Source: Spirobacillus cienkowskii
GTDB lineage: Bacteria > Bdellovibrionota_B > Oligoflexia > Silvanigrellales > Silvanigrellaceae
Length of the DNA stretch: 41,642 bases
Assembly: GCA_003339605.1 (NCBI GenBank)
Contig: QOVW01000073.1
Location: 1 to 41,642 of the forward strand
Reading direction: 5' to 3'
Numbering within the stretch: the first letter of the stretch is position 1; each line of letters opens with the position of its first letter. The notes under the pieces were generated by a model, which made no database searches, was not told the origin of the DNA, and was given only the letters and a program-made list of their open reading frames with translations. A program made the position numbers and the translations under genes. Positions 402 to 37,633 of the stretch are shown piece by piece.

Positions 402-1604
402 TGTAATAATTAGGACAAGATCTGACAATTGTAAAAGAATAAGTTACCCTGTTTTGAACGATTTCAATTTTCAAAACAAATAGCTCAAAGAGCGAACTAC
501 AGGGGGTAACTCAGATGTAGAGTAACACAAAAATAATAAGAAATAAACTTGGTTTACTAAATTTAGCGCAAGAGCTTAAGAATGTCTCACAAGCATGCAA
601 AATGTTAGGTTATTCAAGAGATACTTTTTATCGTTATCGTGATCTTATGGATGAAGGCGGAGAGATTGCGCTTCATGAAAAATCAAGACGTAAACCAAAT
701 TTAAAAAATAGAGTTGATGAAGCAACAGAAGCAAAAGTTGTCCAAATGGCATTAGATTTCCCAGCTTATGGTCAATTAAGAGCGAGTAATGAGTTACGTA
801 AAGTTGGAATATTTATTTCCTCTGGAGGAGTGCGCAGTATTTGGCAGAGACACGATTTAGAGGTTTTTCAAAAGAGATTAAAAGCATTAGAAGCCAAATC
901 AGCAGAAGCACAAATAGCTGCTTTAGAGCGGAAAAAGTTTGATGATGAAGTGTGTGGTGAAATAGAAACAGCTCATCCAGGTTACCTTGTGTCGCAAGAT
1001 ATTTTTTATGTTGGAACCTTAAAAGGTGTTGGTAGGATTTACCAACAAACAGTAGTGGATACTTATTCCAAAGTGGCAGTAGCAAAACTGTATAATACAA
1101 AAACCCCTATAACAGCGGCGGATGCGTTAAATGATAGAGTATTACCGTTATTTGATAGCTATAGCGTACCAATTTTAAGAATGTTAACAGATAGGGGTAC
1201 AGAATATTGTGGCAATAGAGAAACTCACGATTATGAATTATTTCTTGCAATTAATGACATCGATCATACAAAAACAAAAGCAAGACATCCGCAAACGAAT
1301 GGGATATGCGAGAGATTCCATAAAACAATTTTAAATGAATTTTATCAAATAACTTTTAGAAAAAAGATTTATAATAACATCGATGAATTGCAAATAGACC
1401 TTGATAATTGCATACAAGAATATAATTTAAATCGTACGCATCAGGGAAAAATGTGTTGCGGCAGAACGCCAATGCAAACATTCCTTGATGGGATATCAAA
1501 ATGGAGGGAAAAAGACATTGGATTGAATTTTAACTGACAGACAATTTCATTTTTGGGAGTCTTTTGAAACAGGGGGATTGTCAGATAAAATACTAACTAT
1601 TACA
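402..1604 (+). mobile_element. IS481-family insertion sequence, 1203 bp, complete
   Basis: The ends are imperfect terminal inverted repeats. Left 402-429 starts TGTAATAATTAG and ends ATCTGACAAT. The right end, read inward from 1604, starts TGTAATAGTTAG and ends ATCTGACAAT, with 22 of 28 positions identical. The element is flanked by a 7-bp duplication CATTAAC (395-401 and 1605-1611). It contains one transposase gene in a single long frame, as usual for IS481. Starting with TG is also typical of the family. It lies inside, and opposite in direction to, a lipoprotein gene, whose frame is restored exactly by its removal. Confidence 0.92.
602..1537 (+). CDS. IS481-family transposase (DDE integrase core), start region damaged
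   Basis: DDE recombinase that would move the surrounding element. An N-terminal helix-turn-helix (SRDTFYRY region) precedes an rve integrase core. The catalytic acids are visible as Asp in SQDIFYVG, Asp in LTDRGTEYCG and Glu in TNGICERFHKT. The C-terminus RTPMQTFLDG is typical of IS481 proteins. The first ATG in the open frame is at 602, but homologous-looking codons extend upstream to an ATG at 515-517 (NKLGLLNLAQELKNVSQACK precedes the Met). That ATG follows a good ribosome site (AGGGGG, 501-506), and its next codon is TAG (518-520). The full-length version would have 340 codons. The element is probably impaired unless translation starts at 602 or the amber is suppressed. Confidence 0.9.
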   Translation: MLGYSRDTFYRYRDLMDEGGEIALHEKSRRKPNLKNRVDEATEAKVVQMALDFPAYGQLRASNELRKVGIFISSGGVRSIWQRHDLEVFQKRLKALEAKSAEAQIAALERKKFDDEVCGEIETAHPGYLVSQDIFYVGTLKGVGRIYQQTVVDTYSKVAVAKLYNTKTPITAADALNDRVLPLFDSYSVPILRMLTDRGTEYCGNRETHDYELFLAINDIDHTKTKARHPQTNGICERFHKTILNEFYQITFRKKIYNNIDELQIDLDNCIQEYNLNRTHQGKMCCGRTPMQTFLDGISKWREKDIGLNFN

Positions 1605-3178: not shown

Positions 3179-3212
3179 CACCACCGTACGTACGGGTCCG
3201 TATACGGCGGTT
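3179..3212 (-). ncRNA. Group II intron domain V
   Basis: A 34-nt hairpin on the minus strand begins AACCGCCGTA and ends TACGGTGGTG. Its lower stem ACCGCCGTA / TACGGTGGT pairs with G-U contacts and contains the CGC catalytic triad typical of class IIC introns. It starts within the last base of the stop codon of the intron-encoded protein. Confidence 0.85.
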
Positions 3213-4510
3213 TATGTAATTATTCGACCTTTAATCCAATTCTCATGTACACCTTGAGAACCTTTATTAATGAAAAACTCATTATTTAAGATTACATTTG
3301 ATGTTTTAGTTTTGGATTTGTACCAGTATCTTTTTGAGCACCTATATTCTTTAGATTCTTCAAATATTGCTCCTAACTTCATCATATTTCTGACCCGTGT
3401 TCTGGGTTTTCGCCACTGTTTAAAAAGACACATTCTTAGCCTATGCCTTACCCAACTGTCTAAATCCTTCAATAAACGCTCTGTTTTCGTGAGTTGGAAG
3501 TAATTTGTCCACCCCCGAATGAAAGTGTTTAAATTATTGATTCTTTCAGTTAACGGCTGACTACGATGTCCTTTGGTTATTTGGCGAACTCTATCCTTAA
3601 ATTTAATTAAGGACTGTTTAGAAATTCTGATGATTGGATTTTTAATTCCAAGAAAGGAGTAACCTAAGAATTTTCTTTTCCACGCAAAGTCAACTGCGCT
3701 CTTTTCAAAATTAATGGAAAGTTTTAACCTCTTTTCGAGGAAGCATTTAATGCTTGCAAATACCCTTTCTCCTGCACGTTTAGTTTTCACATAAATGTTA
3801 CAGTCGTCTGCATATCTACAGAATTTATGTTTCCTTGTTTCCAATTCCTTATCAAGTTCATCAAGCATAATATTACTTAGCAATGGACTTAATGGAGAAC
3901 CTTGTGGGGTACCTACTTTCGTTGGAATATATTCGAGATTATGCATTATACCTGCGTTTAGGAACGCTCTGATTAATTTTAATACTCTTTTATCGTTTAT
4001 TTTACTTGATATTTTTGACATGAGAATATCGTGATTCACCCGATCAAAAAAATTCTCAAGATCAAAGTCAACAACATATATATTCCCTTCCTTTTGAAAT
4101 TGATGCGCCTGTTTTATTGCTTCATGAGCGGATTTTCCTGTCATAAATCCAAAACTATGTTTTGAAAATGAGGGTTCAAAAATCGGTGCTAATTTTTGCA
4201 ATATAGCTTGTTGAATGAGCCTATCTAATACAGTGGGAATTCCAAGTTGTCTTTTCCTTCCGTCTGCTTTTGGAATAAGGACATATTTTGCAGGATTTGG
4301 TTTATAGGTACCAAGTAGAATTGACTCTTTAATTTGTATCCAATTTTCCTTTAAGTAACTTCTTAATTCAGAAGTGCTTAAATTATCGATACCAGGGCAA
4401 CCTTTGTTCTTCTCTACTCTATTGAGAGCGTTGAACATGTTAGCCCTATCAAGAATCTCTTCTAATAATACTGTTACTTTGTCGTGAGAAGTTTGTTTTA
4501 TTAACGCCAT
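3212..4510 (-). CDS. ltrA: Group II intron reverse transcriptase/maturase (class C)
   Basis: Intron-encoded protein that helps splicing and copies the intron into DNA targets. At 432 residues it matches the roughly 420-residue class C proteins such as GsI-IIC. The reverse-transcriptase core shows GCPGID, KYVLIPKADGRKRQLGIPT, the VDFDLENFFDRVNHD block with the first catalytic Asp, GTPQGSPLSPLLSN, and the active-site YADD in CRYADDCNIYVKTKRAGERV. The maturase/thumb region includes RKFLGYSF and FIRGWTNYF. There is no C-terminal HNH endonuclease, as usual for class C. The frame is intact with all RT motifs, so the intron is plausibly active. It is encoded in domain IV and ends exactly where domain V begins. 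Confidence 0.93.
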   Translation of the reverse strand: MALIKQTSHDKVTVLLEEILDRANMFNALNRVEKNKGCPGIDNLSTSELRSYLKENWIQIKESILLGTYKPNPAKYVLIPKADGRKRQLGIPTVLDRLIQQAILQKLAPIFEPSFSKHSFGFMTGKSAHEAIKQAHQFQKEGNIYVVDFDLENFFDRVNHDILMSKISSKINDKRVLKLIRAFLNAGIMHNLEYIPTKVGTPQGSPLSPLLSNIMLDELDKELETRKHKFCRYADDCNIYVKTKRAGERVFASIKCFLEKRLKLSINFEKSAVDFAWKRKFLGYSFLGIKNPIIRISKQSLIKFKDRVRQITKGHRSQPLTERINNLNTFIRGWTNYFQLTKTERLLKDLDSWVRHRLRMCLFKQWRKPRTRVRNMMKLGAIFEESKEYRCSKRYWYKSKTKTSNVILNNEFFINKGSQGVHENWIKGRIIT

Positions 4511-5085
4511 TTGGAACTCTGCACATTTTCTTCTATTTGTGTATGCACCACCTTAGTGTGAATGAAGTTTCTTTTCAGAATTTTCTGCATTTATTGCTCC
4601 ATCATGAGATAATAATACTCTTACTCATATTACATATTCAGCCCTTCACTTTTGTAAGCTACTATGGCTTCTGCTGACTCCCAATATCATTTCATTCCTA
4701 CTTTCCTTACGGATTGAAAAGAACTTGCTTTCGCATTTTATTGGGTATCCCCAGGTAAGAACGCACTCTTTCATTCCATGTAACCGCCTCATATACTAAT
4801 TATGCCTCTTGATAGGATGGATTTTGTGAATAGCGGTTCACTTATCCAACATAACTAGCCTCAAATGAAGTTCGTGTCCCTCGGTTCGGAACTTTGCCGC
4901 TGGCTTCCTTCAGATTCTTCATTGGCATTTATTCTCATGCAGTCCTAAATTCCTTTAGGCTAACATTCACATGTTCCAGTCGTTAATAAATGTTTCTTTA
5001 GACACCCTTGCCTTAAGCTAACAACTACTCCTATCTTCATTGTTCGGGACTTGCACCCGAAAGAGTGCGCCCATGCTGGGCGCAC
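4511..5085 (-). ncRNA. Group II intron 5' ribozyme region (domains I-III)
   Basis: This 575-nt stretch holds no gene; it is structured intron RNA. Recognisable class C blocks on the minus strand include the GTGCGCCC...GGGCGCAC 5' helix, GGGTGCAAGTCCCGAAC, GAATCTGAAGGAAGC, CACGAACTTCATTTGAGG, and AGTCAGCAGAAGCCATAGTA near the end of the region. Confidence 0.75.
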
Positions 5086-7459: not shown

Positions 7460-9367
7460 ATGGAATTTAGAAACGAAATCATACCGCAAGACATTTTCCA
7501 AAACTTCATGAATGTCACACCTAAACACTTACATAATCAAAAACTAAATTTTCAACGAATTTCTATACATCATTCACGTATTTTATACGCAATAAATAAT
7601 AATAATCAAACAACAATCCCTATTTCTGATGCATGCACAATCGAAAATGGGGGCATTATATCAAATGCCGTATTTAACGAAATTACCAATAACACTGATT
7701 TAAATTTTGTTAAATCAACATGTTTAAAACAATGGATCCGCAATTCTTTGGTAACATGTATTCCTGCTGCAGGAGCTGCTGCACGTTTTTTTTGTGACTT
7801 ACAAAAATTAATAAATTCAATTGAAGAAACAGTTCCTGAATTAAAAAAACTCATTAATAAAAATGAAATTATTATTAATGATAAAAGAAGAAATCAAATT
7901 ATAGATTATTTAAATAATTTTATTTTGAGTTCTTTTTTAGAAAAAACTATGAATTCAAAATTATATAAAAATAACAATACTATTTTTGATACTGTGAATT
8001 TTATAAAATCACAACTATTTAATAAAAATACAATTATAAAATCACAACACATTAACAATATTTTGGTAACATATACAATTTCTAATTTTATACTAGAAAA
8101 CTATCAAAACATCCCTAAAGCTTTACTTCCTGCTACAAATGAGAATGATACTTTTTTAAAGCTTAAAATTATAGAACAATTTCATCTTTTTCATTCTTTA
8201 GGAAATGTATTAATTGTGCCACCAGAAATGAAAAATAATTTTGAATTAGAAATTCAAAAAGTAATATCTAATTTTACCGATCAAAAATATATATCCAACA
8301 TTGATAATAATGTAAATTATAAAAATTATGTCAATAACTGGATTGTTTTAGAACAAGGTTTTGATTTATCAACAATTCGCTTTCATATAGATGGAAAGCC
8401 TTACCTTGATTCAAATGGAAATATTTCTCTTGTTTCTGCAGGACATGGAGAGCTTATTCACCTTTTTAATGATATCGCAGATAGCTTTCCGGAAGCTGAA
8501 TGTTTGCACATCAGAAATATTGATAATATTATTGGAACACAAGAAACGCAGCAAGATGCATTGCTAAATTTAAGTAAAGTATTTAAAGTAGTGCGCCAGT
8601 GTCTAGAATATTTGCGGTTACAGATCCAAATCATAGTAGAAAATAAAAATAATCTCCATAAAGCTAAAATTAGTGACATTGAAGTTTTTAATATTCTGCT
8701 TTATTTTTCTAAGCTTATAAATAATAATTCTTTACATAAAGAATTATTAAATTGTTATCAACAAGAACAATCTATTTCATTTTTGTTAATTATAAAAACT
8801 CTTGGACAACTGTTTCATTGGCCATTAGATGAATTTCAAAATTATAATATAACAACATGGATACAACTTTTAGATAAATTAGAAAATCCTTTATCCGTTT
8901 TTGGCGTTGTTCAAAAAGAAAAAAATGATACAGGAGGCGGTCCCGTTTTTGTAAAGTTACAAGACAACTCAAATATTAAATTATGTCTAGAAATGCCTCA
9001 TGCCTCAGAAAATGATTGTAAAAATTATTTTGGTGACAATGGTAAAGTCACTCACTTTAATCCTGTATTGGTATTTTTTGAGTTAAGAACTCATGATATT
9101 TCTAAAAATGAAAAAGAAAAAATAGGAAAAAAAGTTAATTATGCAAAACTTTTTGACGAACGTTTTTGGTTATTAACACAAAGGGAACACATGGGGAATC
9201 CAGTGTGTTACCATGAAACTGTGTTGTATGAACTTATTGGAAACTCTGCAGTAACAAATTTATTGTTTATTGAAGTTCCTCGTTCTCTTTTTCATCCACA
9301 CAAATCTTATGCAGACACCATAGGTAAAAGTAGGCACTCTTATGGATTTGACGAAATTATTTCTTAA
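7460..9367 (+). CDS. DUF4301 family protein (nucleotidyltransferase-like)
   Basis: Recognised as DUF4301 by several blocks in the right order: IPAAGAAARFF (101-111), IPKALLP (218-224), SAGHGELIHLFNDI (326-339), IRNIDNIIG (351-359), then TGGGPVFVK, HFNPVLVFFELR, and a C-terminal FIEVPRSLFHP. The PAAG-x-x-x-R and PKALLP blocks resemble the signature of sugar-nucleotide transferases, so a nucleotidyl or sugar transfer role is an inference; no activity is established from sequence. At 635 residues it is longer than the roughly 500-residue proteins I associate with this family, with Asn/Ile-rich insertions. Base composition is very AT-rich. The start follows TTAGGAGA. Its end overlaps the next gene by 26 nt. 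Confidence 0.78.
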   Translation: MEFRNEIIPQDIFQNFMNVTPKHLHNQKLNFQRISIHHSRILYAINNNNQTTIPISDACTIENGGIISNAVFNEITNNTDLNFVKSTCLKQWIRNSLVTCIPAAGAAARFFCDLQKLINSIEETVPELKKLINKNEIIINDKRRNQIIDYLNNFILSSFLEKTMNSKLYKNNNTIFDTVNFIKSQLFNKNTIIKSQHINNILVTYTISNFILENYQNIPKALLPATNENDTFLKLKIIEQFHLFHSLGNVLIVPPEMKNNFELEIQKVISNFTDQKYISNIDNNVNYKNYVNNWIVLEQGFDLSTIRFHIDGKPYLDSNGNISLVSAGHGELIHLFNDIADSFPEAECLHIRNIDNIIGTQETQQDALLNLSKVFKVVRQCLEYLRLQIQIIVENKNNLHKAKISDIEVFNILLYFSKLINNNSLHKELLNCYQQEQSISFLLIIKTLGQLFHWPLDEFQNYNITTWIQLLDKLENPLSVFGVVQKEKNDTGGGPVFVKLQDNSNIKLCLEMPHASENDCKNYFGDNGKVTHFNPVLVFFELRTHDISKNEKEKIGKKVNYAKLFDERFWLLTQREHMGNPVCYHETVLYELIGNSAVTNLLFIEVPRSLFHPHKSYADTIGKSRHSYGFDEIIS

Positions 9368-31861: not shown

Positions 31862-32584
31862 ATGTCTGAAAATATTCAAAATAATATAAAATCTTTTCAG
31901 CAAAAGATTTTTGAAATTGCCAAATGTTACAAAAGGGATCCTAATGATATTGAACTTGTTGCAGTCAGCAAATATCATAACACTGAAAACATTAAAAAAG
32001 CTTATCAAGCAGGATGTCTTAATTTTGGTGAAAATTATATTCAAGAATGGAAAGAAAAAAGCATACAGCTTGACGAAGATAGATTTTCAAATATTAAGTG
32101 GCATATTATAGGAAATTTACAAAAAAATAAGATTAAATTTTTAAATTCTAAAGTGTCTTGTTTGCAATCACTCGATAGCTTAGATCTTGCAATAGAAATA
32201 GAAAAAAAGGCTCCATTGGACTTACCACTTCGCGTTCTGGTGCAACTACAAATTGATTTTCAAGATACAAATAAATTTGGCGCAACAATCGAACATGCAA
32301 AAAAAATCTGTGAGTTTATGAGCTCAAGTAAAAAAATGACCCTGCAGGGCTTTATGGGAATTGGTCCTGCAGAATGCCATGAAGAAAAAAGAAAAGAACT
32401 GTATTTTAGTTTTACTCATAATAGTAAAATATTATGGCAAGAGTACAGCACACAAAGGTTACAAAACCCAATCATTTCTCTTGGAATGAGCAGCGATTAC
32501 GCAACAGCGATTGAATGTGGCTCAACAATGTTACGAATTGGGACAGCAATTTTTGGAGCAAGAAAAAACAATAAAGTAACTTAA
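31862..32584 (+). CDS. YggS/PROSC-family PLP-binding protein
   Basis: Pyridoxal-phosphate homeostasis protein with an alanine-racemase-like fold. 240 residues. The PLP-binding Lys37 lies in ELVAVSKYHN. Other family blocks are NFGENYIQEW, WHIIGNLQKNKI, LQGFMGIGP, and LGMSSDYATAIECGSTMLRIGTAIFG. AAAAGGA lies 6 nt before the ATG. It is 26 nt downstream of maf, so probably co-transcribed. The stop overlaps that of the convergent ABC transporter gene by 4 bases. Confidence 0.95.
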   Translation: MSENIQNNIKSFQQKIFEIAKCYKRDPNDIELVAVSKYHNTENIKKAYQAGCLNFGENYIQEWKEKSIQLDEDRFSNIKWHIIGNLQKNKIKFLNSKVSCLQSLDSLDLAIEIEKKAPLDLPLRVLVQLQIDFQDTNKFGATIEHAKKICEFMSSSKKMTLQGFMGIGPAECHEEKRKELYFSFTHNSKILWQEYSTQRLQNPIISLGMSSDYATAIECGSTMLRIGTAIFGARKNNKVT

Positions 32585-35500
32585 TGCATTGTTAAATCAG
32601 AAGAAAAAGGTTGCTGCTGTGATCTGATTAAAGGAATATGTGTTAACATTTCATTATCAACTTTAGCAACTTCGTGACATATTTTAAACAAACCAGAACT
32701 TACTGGGGCTGAAATTAAAATAGTCGCATCGTTGAGTTCTCTGTTTAATAGTTCAAGAATTCTTATTTCAGCTTCTTCTGTAAGCGTCAAATTATCAAGA
32801 AATATAACTTTATTCTTATGTAATAAAGTTTTTGCAAATGAAAATAAAATAAACTCCCCCGTCCATATCATATGTTTTGGAAAATCCTCAATTTTTGTAT
32901 TCAAACCATTGCAAAGTAAAGCAACAGATTGTGCGACTCCTACACGATTTAAAGCGAACCATATTTCTGAATCGTCAAATTTTTCTTCAGGATCAATATT
33001 TTCTCTTAACGTTAAAAATGGGAATAACGACTCCATAGAGATATAGGCATAACGATTTCTAAATTCTAACGGATTAATTTTTAAAATATCTTCTTCATCG
33101 AGCATTATAGAACCTGATTCAATTTTTGTAAAAAGAAATAATATAGAAAAAAATGGAGACAAACCATATTGATTTTTTTGCGCAATGAGACCAAAACGAG
33201 ATGCGTGAGGAATGAATAAATCTAAATTATAAATTGAAAATGAATTGTCTTTTGAAGCTTGTACATTTAAAGATTTTATGCAAAATGTTCCTTTGTTTGG
33301 CCATATTTCAGAAATTAATTCATGATTTCTTTCAAATTCTTGGAGACGAATTGAAGTTTTCATTAAATTTTTAAAATAAAAAATAGATTGATTAAATTTA
33401 TTTAAATCACGCCCAATATGATGAAACGCCTGAAATAAAAAAATTATTGAAATGAAAGAAAGAATTACTGATCCAAAATTAACATTTTTAGAATTAATAA
33501 CAAAATAAACAAGAAAAAGGCAAGAAAACAAAAATATAGATATACATAGAAATCTATAAAAGTAAAAAATTATTGCATTTTTATCTTTTAAAACACAGTC
33601 TGTTTCTGCAATTTTACTATTTATTTTATTAAAAAGATAAGAGCGAAATGATTGGGAGTTAGGGTTAATATAAGAGTTAAAAAAACTGACAGTGATGTTT
33701 TTAAGGTTTTGTTTTTTTAATAATAAACTATCTAATTTTTCAAAATATGAATTTTTAAAAACTAAAAAGAAAACGCAAGTAAATGAAAACATGGCAACTA
33801 CAAAACAAAATGCCGTTATATTTGTCGATAGCATTAAAAAAATTGCAGAAAAAATTAATGATATTCTTACTATAAATGATGTTGTTGCTGTAAATAAATA
33901 CTCTTTAAACTTTGAAAATTTTTCTAGGTACTTAGCCGTATAATGATGCTCATCTTGATATTCTTTAATTAATAAGTTATATACTTTTTCTTCTAATTTT
34001 GCCCCAAATTTTAAATGAGATTCAATATTTTTCAATGAAAAATAATAAAATAATATCACCGATAACAAAGAAAACAAACTAAACATAATTAATTGGTTAT
34101 TTCTTGTTAATTTTTGTCCTAAAAAATCTGAAAACAGAAATAAAAAAGACAAACTTAATGATATATGAGACATTACCACTAAAGCAATTGGCACATATGG
34201 TTTACAAATTGAAAAATATGTACGCATATAATATATCGTAGAATCAAACATATATTTTAACATATTTTCTTTTTTTATAGCTTCAAATTTGTTAGAATTA
34301 AAATCATTTAAATTTTCAATTTGAGAATTTTTTATAGAAAAACGTTTCGTATTATTTTTTAAATTTTGTTGATTAAAACTATTTAAATCAACACCTGCAT
34401 AATGCATTTTTGCGTACAGTCCAGCCTTCTCAATTAACCAAGAATGAGTTCCTTGCTCAACAATCATGCCGTCTTTCATAACAATGACATAATTGCATAA
34501 TGCTGCTAAATTGAGATCTTGTGTAACAAGTACTCTATTTTTCCCGTGCAAAGTTTTTAAAAAACCTTCTTTAAAAATTTGCGTAGATTCTGAGGCTGAA
34601 AACCCTTTTAAAGGATCATCAAAAAAATAATACTCTGATTTTGCATATAGTATTCTAGCAATCGCAATTTTTCGTAAAAAATTAAAATTGTTTTGTTCGT
34701 TAATAGAAATAAATGTGTCATCACCATTTTCTAGATTATTTATTTCATACTCTAACAAAGTCGCTTTAATAACTTCTATATATCTTTTTTCCTCAAATTC
34801 ATGTCCCAAAATAATATTTTCTCTTAAAGTACCAGAAAAAAAACTTAATTCTTGAGGCATAATTTCAAATTTTTGAGGTACCCTTCTTTCTCCTCCAAAT
34901 AATTGCAACTCACCTGCAAACGCATGAAGTAAACTTGTTTTTCCGGAACAAGAGTCTCCAACTATTGCAACGATATGACCTGGCTCATGCTCGTAAGTTA
35001 TATGATATAAATTAATTTCTTTTCCCAAAACAAAAGATGCCTTATGCAACCATAATTTATCTTGTTTTTCAATTTGATGAAAACCTGAACCTAAAGAATC
35101 TTCTTCGTAATCAATATCGTTTTGCAATAAATCTTTTTTACTCTGTTTACTAAATGAAAAACTAAAGTTAGATTTAAATTTTTTTCTTATATCATAAAAA
35201 TGTACTATATTTGAATAAAAACCGGCAGCAATAACAAAATATAAAATTAATACAATTAAATTAATTAAACCAGCTTCTTTATGAAATAAAGCATAGCTAG
35301 TTATACTTGGTATAGCAATTATTATTCCAGAAAAATAAAACAATGTATTAGAAAATGAATTTTTTTGTACTGCACTGTATGCTAAGTTATAGCTATTTGT
35401 TTGAATAAAATTTATTTTTTTGATAAAAAAATTTTCCATTGCTAAAAGATGTACTCTTCTTCCAAAAGAAAATATTTTTTTTAGCAGTATGCTTCGAGAT

Positions 35501-36180
35501 TTTAAAAAAAACTCTTCTTTTTTTTCATTTCTTTTTAAAAAAATTTGATTGCGAAACTTAAAAATACTAATTAAAAACAAAACAATTATCGGGACCAAAA
35601 ATAATTGATTCATAAAATAATAAATACAAAAAAATACCGCAATTAAAGCAGGAAAACTAAATAATAAACAAAAAGCAACAGGAATTTGAGCAATTTTATT
35701 TACAAAAAAATCTCCATTTTTATCAATATAATTATTAATAATTATATTATTATCTTCTTTTTTTGAAAAACGCAAAATTCTTGCTACAAAATCTATAGAA
35801 TAACGTTCTATGTCTGTTTTCCATTGTAATAAAACATGCTTTTTTAAATAAAAAGCTAGCAAATAAATTGTTACAAACACAACCAAATAAATTGATGTTT
35901 CTATTAATCTTTTTTGATCTATACTTATTTTGTCAAAAAGATACGTAACTAAAAAAAACTTTAATAAAAACGGAGAAAAAAGTAACAATAAAATTAATAA
36001 AACTTGACTCAATCCACAAATTGCAATTTGTTTTTTAAAAATACTAAAAAAAATAAACCATAGAGATCGATCTGTATTGATAGCGCGTTGTAAGCATTTT
36101 TCTGGCAAATCTGCCTTTTGAGAAATCAAAGAAATAAATGGTAAAAATCCAAATAAATATTTTTTTTGAAAACTAGCCAT
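32581..36180 (-). CDS. Fused full-length ABC transporter with degenerate second ATPase
   Basis: 1199 residues in the order membrane domain 1 (about 45-330), nucleotide-binding domain 1 (375-595), membrane domain 2 (650-930), nucleotide-binding domain 2 (960-1185), as in ABCC-type exporters. NBD1 keeps Walker A GDSCSGKT (408-415), Q-loop MPQE and Walker B YYFFDDP (517-523). It lacks an LSGGQ signature (positions 493-503 read INEQNNFNFLR), and its H-loop has Gln554. NBD2 has no Walker A lysine (GLIAQKNQYGLSP near 997-1009), Asn1130 in place of the catalytic Glu (VIFLDNL), and no switch His. Neither composite site is standard. Very AT-rich. Substrate unknown. Confidence 0.88.
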   Translation of the reverse strand: MASFQKKYLFGFLPFISLISQKADLPEKCLQRAINTDRSLWFIFFSIFKKQIAICGLSQVLLILLLLFSPFLLKFFLVTYLFDKISIDQKRLIETSIYLVVFVTIYLLAFYLKKHVLLQWKTDIERYSIDFVARILRFSKKEDNNIIINNYIDKNGDFFVNKIAQIPVAFCLLFSFPALIAVFFCIYYFMNQLFLVPIIVLFLISIFKFRNQIFLKRNEKKEEFFLKSRSILLKKIFSFGRRVHLLAMENFFIKKINFIQTNSYNLAYSAVQKNSFSNTLFYFSGIIIAIPSITSYALFHKEAGLINLIVLILYFVIAAGFYSNIVHFYDIRKKFKSNFSFSFSKQSKKDLLQNDIDYEEDSLGSGFHQIEKQDKLWLHKASFVLGKEINLYHITYEHEPGHIVAIVGDSCSGKTSLLHAFAGELQLFGGERRVPQKFEIMPQELSFFSGTLRENIILGHEFEEKRYIEVIKATLLEYEINNLENGDDTFISINEQNNFNFLRKIAIARILYAKSEYYFFDDPLKGFSASESTQIFKEGFLKTLHGKNRVLVTQDLNLAALCNYVIVMKDGMIVEQGTHSWLIEKAGLYAKMHYAGVDLNSFNQQNLKNNTKRFSIKNSQIENLNDFNSNKFEAIKKENMLKYMFDSTIYYMRTYFSICKPYVPIALVVMSHISLSLSFLFLFSDFLGQKLTRNNQLIMFSLFSLLSVILFYYFSLKNIESHLKFGAKLEEKVYNLLIKEYQDEHHYTAKYLEKFSKFKEYLFTATTSFIVRISLIFSAIFLMLSTNITAFCFVVAMFSFTCVFFLVFKNSYFEKLDSLLLKKQNLKNITVSFFNSYINPNSQSFRSYLFNKINSKIAETDCVLKDKNAIIFYFYRFLCISIFLFSCLFLVYFVINSKNVNFGSVILSFISIIFLFQAFHHIGRDLNKFNQSIFYFKNLMKTSIRLQEFERNHELISEIWPNKGTFCIKSLNVQASKDNSFSIYNLDLFIPHASRFGLIAQKNQYGLSPFFSILFLFTKIESGSIMLDEEDILKINPLEFRNRYAYISMESLFPFLTLRENIDPEEKFDDSEIWFALNRVGVAQSVALLCNGLNTKIEDFPKHMIWTGEFILFSFAKTLLHKNKVIFLDNLTLTEEAEIRILELLNRELNDATILISAPVSSGLFKICHEVAKVDNEMLTHIPLIRSQQQPFSSDLTMH

Positions 36181-36370: not shown

Positions 36371-37633
36371 TTACGAATTGCTTTTTTTTGCAGAGTAATC
36401 TTCAATAAATTTTTCTAAACCTTTTTCTTTTAATTCTTGTAAAATTTTTTTTTCTTGAATGAGAGCGGGTTCTTGTGCTATTGCAGCCTGAAAAGAGTTG
36501 ACCGCACTTGATATATTACCAGAGCGAAAATACGCCATGCCTAAATTAAAATACACAACGCCTTTGTATTTATTAAAAAACTGCAAGGCATTTTCATAAA
36601 ACTGAATTGCTTCTTGCACATTGCCTTTTTTTACTAACGCAACTCCACGATTATTAAAAAAACTCGCCAAAGCGCTGCTTTCAAAATTACCTTCAATTTT
36701 ATCAAAAAACGTTTTTGCGTTACTAAAATTTCCTGTTACCGATGATGTCTTTACCATCCCTGCAAGCGCGCCCGCATTTGTTGCATCGGTTTGTAACACT
36801 TCATCATATTTTTTTTCTGCTCCAACAACATTATCCAAACCTAATAACGCATCTCCAATCATGACTTTATGATGCAAATTATGAGGACTTTTTGCTTCTA
36901 AACGTTCAAAAATCACCAAAGCCTCTTCAAAATTTCCAGCCAAACACAATGCCTTGCTTAGAGTGCTTAATGTTCGTAGATTTTCGTGCGAACGATTTTC
37001 GCCTCCTTGACTCAGCTTGTCTTTTAAAAATTGAATAGCATCTAAATATTTTTTATGTTGTATCCGAATTTCTCCACCTAAATAAGCATATTTAGGATTA
37101 TCTTGAATCTCTTTTTCGATATCAATACTTTCTTTTAAGAGCGCTTCGATAGCTTGAGAATCAGCCTGATGTAGCAACCGTTGTAGGTTTTTAAGCTTCG
37201 CAACAACCGATTGGCTATTGAGATAAGCCATTCTTGCTTGTTCCATTTTTGCCGTAAAATCAAAAACATTAACAACCTTGGGCATTGTATAGTAAATATC
37301 GATTTCACTCATTAAAAACGTATCTTCTTCTGCAAATGCTGCTGAACAAACAATCAATTCAATATGATCAAATTCTGAACCGGCTTTGATTTTTTGTGAA
37401 AAAAGATGACCAGACATCCCTGACATATTCCAGTCAAATAATATCATATTAACCTTAGCACCTTCTTTTGCTAAAATATCGAGCCCTTCTTGAGCTGTTG
37501 CGGCATTAATAACCTCATAATTGCCATTTTTGGTTAAAGCCCCCATAAAAAAAGTTCTTAAGTCGGTTTTTTCTTCTATAATTAAAACACAAACTTTATT
37601 GTTATTTTGTTTGTTTTTAGTGTCTTTTGTCAT
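36371..37633 (-). CDS. Response-regulator receiver domain with TPR repeats
   Basis: 420 residues. A CheY-like receiver spans about 13-135, with phospho-acceptor Asp67 in ILFDWNMSGMSG, the acidic pair Glu20/Glu21, VCSAAF for the switch residue, and Lys119 in MPKV. A linker helix region leads to tetratricopeptide-type repeats from about 200 to 405 (GNFEEALVIFERL, GNVQEAIQFYENALQFF, YFNLGMAYFRSGNISSAVNSFQAAIAQEP). No DNA-binding output, so the signal probably controls protein interactions. The ATG has AAGGCG upstream. Next to the ABC transporter (190-nt gap) and downstream of priA in the same direction. Confidence 0.92.
   Translation of the reverse strand: MTKDTKNKQNNNKVCVLIIEEKTDLRTFFMGALTKNGNYEVINAATAQEGLDILAKEGAKVNMILFDWNMSGMSGHLFSQKIKAGSEFDHIELIVCSAAFAEEDTFLMSEIDIYYTMPKVVNVFDFTAKMEQARMAYLNSQSVVAKLKNLQRLLHQADSQAIEALLKESIDIEKEIQDNPKYAYLGGEIRIQHKKYLDAIQFLKDKLSQGGENRSHENLRTLSTLSKALCLAGNFEEALVIFERLEAKSPHNLHHKVMIGDALLGLDNVVGAEKKYDEVLQTDATNAGALAGMVKTSSVTGNFSNAKTFFDKIEGNFESSALASFFNNRGVALVKKGNVQEAIQFYENALQFFNKYKGVVYFNLGMAYFRSGNISSAVNSFQAAIAQEPALIQEKKILQELKEKGLEKFIEDYSAKKSNS

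Follow-up and report, generated by a model that had tools for sequence, protein, structure and literature searches.

Can a full-length ATP-binding cassette (ABC) protein remain worth keeping once the site that would be expected to hydrolyse ATP has been taken apart? This question is raised by a gene on a 41,642-nucleotide stretch of Spirobacillus cienkowskii DNA (contig QOVW01000073.1, analysed at its full length and referred to here as the window), which encodes a fused ABC protein with two transmembrane domains (TMD1 and TMD2) and two nucleotide-binding domains (NBD1 and NBD2). A first-pass annotation had reported that NBD2 lacks the Walker A lysine, the catalytic glutamate and the switch histidine, and that NBD1 lacks both the LSGGQ signature and the switch histidine. 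All of this is true of the window protein, and to it we add losses or changes at the Q-loop glutamine of NBD2, at the signature serine of NBD2, now tryptophan, and at the catalytic position of NBD1, now aspartate. Having compared the protein with its relatives, we lean towards the reading that it is a vertically inherited pseudo-transporter, kept by selection and derived from fused ABCC-type bacterial exporters, in which nucleotide would bind at NBD1 but would not be turned over normally. The gene and its domains are laid out as follows.

32581..36180, minus strand: coding sequence of the 1199-residue fused ABC protein (TMD1-NBD1-TMD2-NBD2), ATG start, from the open reading frame, Pfam and phmmer
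35161..36060, minus strand: TMD1, residues 41-340, six transmembrane-like segments by family-average hydropathy
34381..35064, minus strand: NBD1, residues 373-600, from Pfam ABC_tran (393-524) and the alignment
33346..34260, minus strand: TMD2, residues 641-945, six transmembrane-like segments by family-average hydropathy
32641..33318, minus strand: NBD2, residues 955-1180, non-canonical and the most constrained domain by dN/dS (nonsynonymous to synonymous substitution rates) and pairwise identity

In the full protein, Pfam recognizes ABC_tran (54.9 bits across two stretches) together with a sub-threshold AAA_16 match, and finds no ABC membrane domain; the pattern of six plus six transmembrane (TM) segments nevertheless fits the hydropathy averaged over six orthologues. 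The top phmmer matches in the PDB are ABCC4 (6.5e-46) and ABCC5 (1.6e-45), with an alignment that spans both NBDs; SUR1/SUR2 are matched at E about 1e-27, and CFTR is also among the nearest relatives, all of these being ABCC proteins. Matches at E<=1e-60 occur in 7/58 genomes of the phylum, every one of them in this genus, and orthologues are present in five of the six other same-genus genomes (37-46% identity to the window protein) as well as in the same-species genome G056. The reading frames are intact, 1199-1215 residues long and syntenic in 7/7 genomes carrying the gene. We aligned six orthologues, including the window protein, with 19 distant fused relatives (20 regions were fetched, and G005:C19, a 609-residue half transporter, was dropped; other full-length frames found in the initial search were not included), and the six form a single clade with support 100/100.

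The central observation concerns nucleotide-binding site 2 (NBS2), composed of the Walker A and Walker B motifs of NBD2 and the signature of NBD1, which is dismantled in 6/6 orthologous sequences. The positions in question are these.

33157..33183, minus strand: NBD2 Walker A position, AQKNQYGLS, residues 1000-1008; GxxxxGK[ST] absent in 6/6
33034..33036, minus strand: NBD2 Q-loop glutamine position, M1049; Met or Leu in 6/6
32791..32796, minus strand: NBD2 Walker B aspartate D1129 and catalytic position N1130; Asn for Glu in 6/6
32704..32706, minus strand: NBD2 switch histidine position, P1159; His in 3/6 orthologues
34678..34692, minus strand: NBD1 signature position, residues 497-501; LSGGQ lost in 6/6, final residue Phe in 6/6

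In the window protein, the Walker A region of NBD2 contains neither the first nor the sixth-position glycine nor the lysine of the motif, and NBD1 reads N(-)NFNF where LSGGQ is expected. The distant relatives look quite different: 19/19 are canonical at the motifs lost here, the exception being the catalytic glutamate of NBD1, which is present in 0/19. Their GxxxxGK[ST] count is two in 19/19, against one, in NBD1, in 6/6 orthologues. What is more, six replacements (S1106W, E1130N, Q501F, P1051S, F1054P and G1056L) are fixed in 6/6 orthologues at positions canonical in 19/19 relatives. Counted over 11 positions and six sequences, canonical residues are retained in 46/66 cells at NBS1, the other composite site, and in 22/66 at NBS2, a figure that includes five lysine cells dependent on a one-residue insertion in the alignment. 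In the relatives, the catalytic residue of NBD1 is Asp (16) or Ser (3) and never Glu, while that of NBD2 is Glu in 19/19, so that, as in ABCC proteins, their NBS1 is degenerate and their NBS2 follows the consensus.

How unusual is this within the organism itself? Of the 57 other PF00005 matches in the window's genome, we read 49, leaving out eight low-scoring fragments, and GxxxxGK[ST] is found in 48/49 of these segments; the exception, L156, ends in GNGQS. The NBD2 of the window protein accordingly brings the NBDs read without the motif to two, and of these it alone has no glycine-rich loop at all. A separate observation in the same genome is L158 (G000:C1:90831-91841), a half-size ABC frame with an in-frame TAA that adjoins an intact 611-residue half transporter and is possibly a broken heterodimer partner.

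Could the losses simply be decay? The first-pass annotation had proposed an alignment of NBD motifs among homologues, with motif retention as a sign of recent decay in this genome, and the result is divided: the distant relatives keep the motifs, while the orthologues do not. Recent decay is rejected because the orthologues also lack the motifs, most of the losses being shared by the five from the same genus. Selection tells the same story. By the Nei-Gojobori method, applied to one genome pair (G003 vs G002), the whole gene has dN 0.092 and dN/dS 0.072, and the ratio by domain is 0.108 for TMD1, 0.066 for NBD1, 0.077 for TMD2 and 0.021 for NBD2 (dN 0.036), compared with 0.044-0.157 for six neighbouring genes. 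The ratios are approximate, since dS approaches saturation (1.0-1.7 by domain), but NBD2 is lowest by dN as well. Mean pairwise identity among the six orthologues is likewise highest in NBD2, with 0.61 for NBD2, 0.56 for NBD1 and 0.44 and 0.42 for the TMDs. Purifying selection maintains the gene, and it is strongest in the non-canonical NBD2. One can still argue for a decaying pseudogene on the grounds that, of all the orthologues, the window lineage sits on the longest branch (0.85), that its protein lacks the P-loop-region lysine found in five relatives, that genome G001 lacks the gene and that the guanine plus cytosine content of the window gene is only 25%. However, this content is low in all orthologue genes (0.25-0.30), the branch of the window's PriA is also long (0.62), and the intact frames in 7/7 carrier genomes and the dN/dS of 0.072 largely refute decay, which we consider very improbable.

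The second site, NBS1, is in a different state. It is partly kept in the orthologous sequences, with the P-loop of NBD1 and the Gly and Glu in the NBD2 signature each present in 6/6 and the Walker B aspartate in 5/6, at the following positions.

34936..34959, minus strand: NBD1 Walker A, GDSCSGKT, residues 408-415; canonical pattern, present in 6/6
34615..34620, minus strand: NBD1 Walker B aspartate and catalytic position, D521 D522, from the alignment
34519..34521, minus strand: NBD1 switch histidine position, Q554; His in 0/6
32854..32868, minus strand: NBD2 signature, IWTGE, residues 1105-1109; Ser to Trp in 6/6, Gly and Glu retained

The suggestion of the first-pass annotation that ATP is bound at one site only fits this distribution, insofar as sequence can tell, since the P-loop is present in NBD1 in 6/6 and in NBD2 in 0/6. 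Even so, no site in any of the six combines Walker A, the Walker B glutamate, the switch histidine and the opposing signature serine. The NBD2 signature has the consensus [IL]W[STA]GE in 6/6, and its tryptophan, which faces NBS1 by homology, would be expected to alter the contact with the gamma-phosphate.

It is here that the main rival explanation has to be weighed, namely that the protein is a slow but genuine transporter, in which NBS1 has become the sole functional site and export is powered by the binding, and occasionally the hydrolysis, of ATP at NBD1. The invariant P-loop of NBD1 and the retained six plus six TM pattern speak for it, as does the Walker B pair, which is Asp-Glu in G006, G003 and G002; the Q-loop glutamine of NBD1 is present in the window protein and in G006, so that in G006, where the rival is most attractive, Walker A, Gln, Asp and Glu all stand in NBD1. 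The remaining orthologues fit less well. In particular, the pair is Asp-Asp in the window protein, Asp-Lys in G005 and Asn-Asp in G004, meaning that the catalytic residue is Asp in two of the six, Glu in three and Lys in one, and that the Walker B aspartate itself has become Asn in G004. Since, moreover, the switch histidine of NBD1 is lost in 6/6 and the signature serine facing NBS1 is tryptophan in 6/6, we regard a slow transporter as unlikely, if less so than the other rivals.

Returning to the pseudo-transporter that we favour, its working might be pictured as follows. Nucleotide would be held at NBD1 and would not be turned over at a useful rate, while NBD2 would now serve as a structural or docking domain completing the NBD pair. 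The protein as a whole would then act as an inner-membrane nucleotide-sensing regulator or scaffold, possibly as a gated pore, in place of an ATP-driven pump.

That said, several points weigh against this picture. The switch histidine of NBD2 is retained in G006, G003 and G002, and its loss is therefore not fixed across the family. Similarly, a one-residue insertion in the MAFFT alignment places a lysine in the Walker A lysine column of NBD2 in 5/6 orthologues (as KxS, not KS; the window protein has Gly), and, if the inserted residue is accepted, the P-loop lysine may survive in these five. Given the Asp-Glu pairs in three orthologues, and the additional glutamine of G006, weak hydrolysis may be possible at NBS1. 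ATP binding at NBD1 is itself a prediction from the P-loop kept there. An AlphaFold2 model, computed with one relative (L053) as input, was unusable, with a mean pLDDT (predicted local distance difference test) of 32.9 for the full protein and 36.5 for NBD2. The gene was not found in G001, a member of the genus whose genome is 72% complete. Finally, between the window and G056, the gene shows eight differences, six nonsynonymous and two synonymous, which are too few to interpret; PriA shows seven (six and one) in the same comparison.

How does the protein compare with known systems? According to a 2020 review (PMC7756269), the degenerate site of full-length human ABC proteins is always NBS1, which retains its ATP and acts as a hinge while hydrolysis takes place at NBS2. 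The protein studied here is the reverse, with the hydrolysing site dismantled. In Pdr5, a full-length yeast protein with a degenerate NBS1, several motifs are likewise lost at one composite site, including a Walker B change from Glu to Asn, as described in the same review; unlike the present protein, Pdr5 has a canonical other site, is an active pump and differs in domain order.

The ABCC family is the closest point of reference. ABCC4 (MRP4), ABCC5 (MRP5) and the bacterial fused ABCC-like exporters share with our protein the single TMD-NBD-TMD-NBD chain and the core of six plus six TM segments. In ABCC proteins, the stretch from Walker A to the signature has about 13 residues fewer in NBD1 than in NBD2, and a shortening of 15-16 residues is found here in 6/6 orthologues. 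However, ABCC proteins keep a consensus NBS2, while here it is without P-loop, Glu, Gln and opposing LSGGQ in 6/6, all of which 19/19 bacterial relatives keep. At the catalytic position of NBD1, where ABCC proteins have Asp for Glu, the orthologues are mixed, with Asp in the window protein and G004, Glu in three and Lys in one. Consequently, the proposal that the protein acts in the manner of ABCC members stands as far as the resemblance goes, in the PDB matches and the shorter NBD1 stretch, and fails as to the site, ABCC being degenerate at NBS1.

The presence of CFTR among the nearest PDB relatives invites the thought of an ATP-gated or constitutive channel, all the more as ATP binding suffices for CFTR opening without hydrolysis. 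Against this, we found no conserved pore feature, invariant polar residues within the TM segments of the six orthologues are few, the NBD1-TMD2 linker of about 40 residues is not of the size of an R domain, and the neighbouring genes give no pointer to ion flux; a channel is accordingly improbable in our view. Another possibility is secondary transport driven by protons through an ABC scaffold, for which SbmA/SLiPT, an ABC exporter descendant without ATP drive, sets a precedent by showing that the ABC transmembrane fold can abandon ATP use (PMC13316013). Yet in SbmA the NBDs and the coupling helices are gone and a glutamate ladder is required, whereas our protein retains its NBDs and none of the hydropathy-defined TM-like segments of the six orthologues contains an invariant Asp or Glu, so that we give this explanation the least credence of all.

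The gene neighbourhood bears on what a nucleotide-sensing protein might serve. One further feature is needed here.

36371..37633, minus strand: response-regulator/TPR protein, upstream neighbour in 7/7 genomes with the ABC gene; likely operon

The order of genes in the carrier genomes is phosphatase-like, PriA, response-regulator/TPR, a small membrane gene in some, ABC, variable genes, YggS and Maf, with CheA and CheW past Maf where the fetched stretches extend that far, and also nearby in the window. In five sister genomes, the gene of a small multispanning protein (L084:7080-7976 and counterparts in L085-L088) ends within a few bases of the ABC start or overlaps it. This protein has about 280-300 residues, its start codons not being settled, 45-47% identity to the G006 version and the invariant stretches PFLWFGY and WMSGPAN, and Pfam assigns it no family. 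A degenerate CPBP protease was considered for it; a profile comparison with 11 CPBP proteins gave a probability of 1.3%, leaving the idea unsupported. The ABC protein is probably co-produced with it in the five genomes, which makes it a candidate partner. In the window's own species, a search of both genomes, run without a positive control, gave no match to it, and the 190 bp between the ABC and response-regulator/TPR genes in the window hold no readable remnant. In the 1.5 Mb genome G001 (L182, G001:C59:1-3366), the PriA and YggS ends overlap directly, with the ABC gene absent between them, and the response-regulator/TPR protein likewise has no match in this 72% complete assembly. Outside the genus, two further genera of the family have homologues of the latter beside MotA/MotB-like genes (G007, L184) or a FliG gene (G008, L185), which is only a hint of a link between the ABC locus and motility.

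A more specific proposal, tentative and in our judgement rather less probable than the pseudo-transporter in general, is that of a genus-wide nucleotide-binding-only ABCC-type protein, in which the 'hinge' NBS1 is kept, the 'engine' NBS2 is gone and an invariant tryptophan replaces the signature serine, and which could be an ATP sensor for the small membrane partner beside the response-regulator/TPR protein. A likeness would be SUR1/SUR2 (ABCC8/9), ABCC proteins sensing nucleotide for another membrane protein. In SUR, however, NBS2 can still bind nucleotide, while here NBS2 is dismantled.

Elsewhere in the window, there is a group II intron at 3212-4931 (minus strand), with a maturase/reverse transcriptase frame at 3212-4510 (RVT_1 and GIIM) and, at 4641-4931, matches to the Rfam group-II D1-D4 families; a transposase/integrase-like frame (HTH_29, rve) at 602-1537 (plus strand), close to the contig start; and a DUF4301 protein followed by an overlapping 173-residue frame without Pfam match at 7460-9367 (plus strand). 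The PADLOC matches of the ABC protein involve P-loop stretches only, and a plasmid search returned 2096 matching records, none covering >80% of the query.

A literature search, with most subscription journals outside its scope, yielded no description of this protein, nor any paper using exact phrases for doubly degenerate ABC proteins. Judged by its motifs, it is a probable descendant of ABCC-type proteins in which neither site is canonical, kept across a genus. There is no settled answer as to why so many ABC transporters retain one degenerate site for ATP, and the 2020 review (PMC7756269) describes the functional origin of this pattern as 'enigmatic'. A natural protein that appears to retain NBS1 alone would allow the role of this site to be measured without engineered mutants. 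Finally, even where an NBD is strongly constrained by purifying selection, ATP hydrolysis does not necessarily follow, which calls for caution in automatic annotation.

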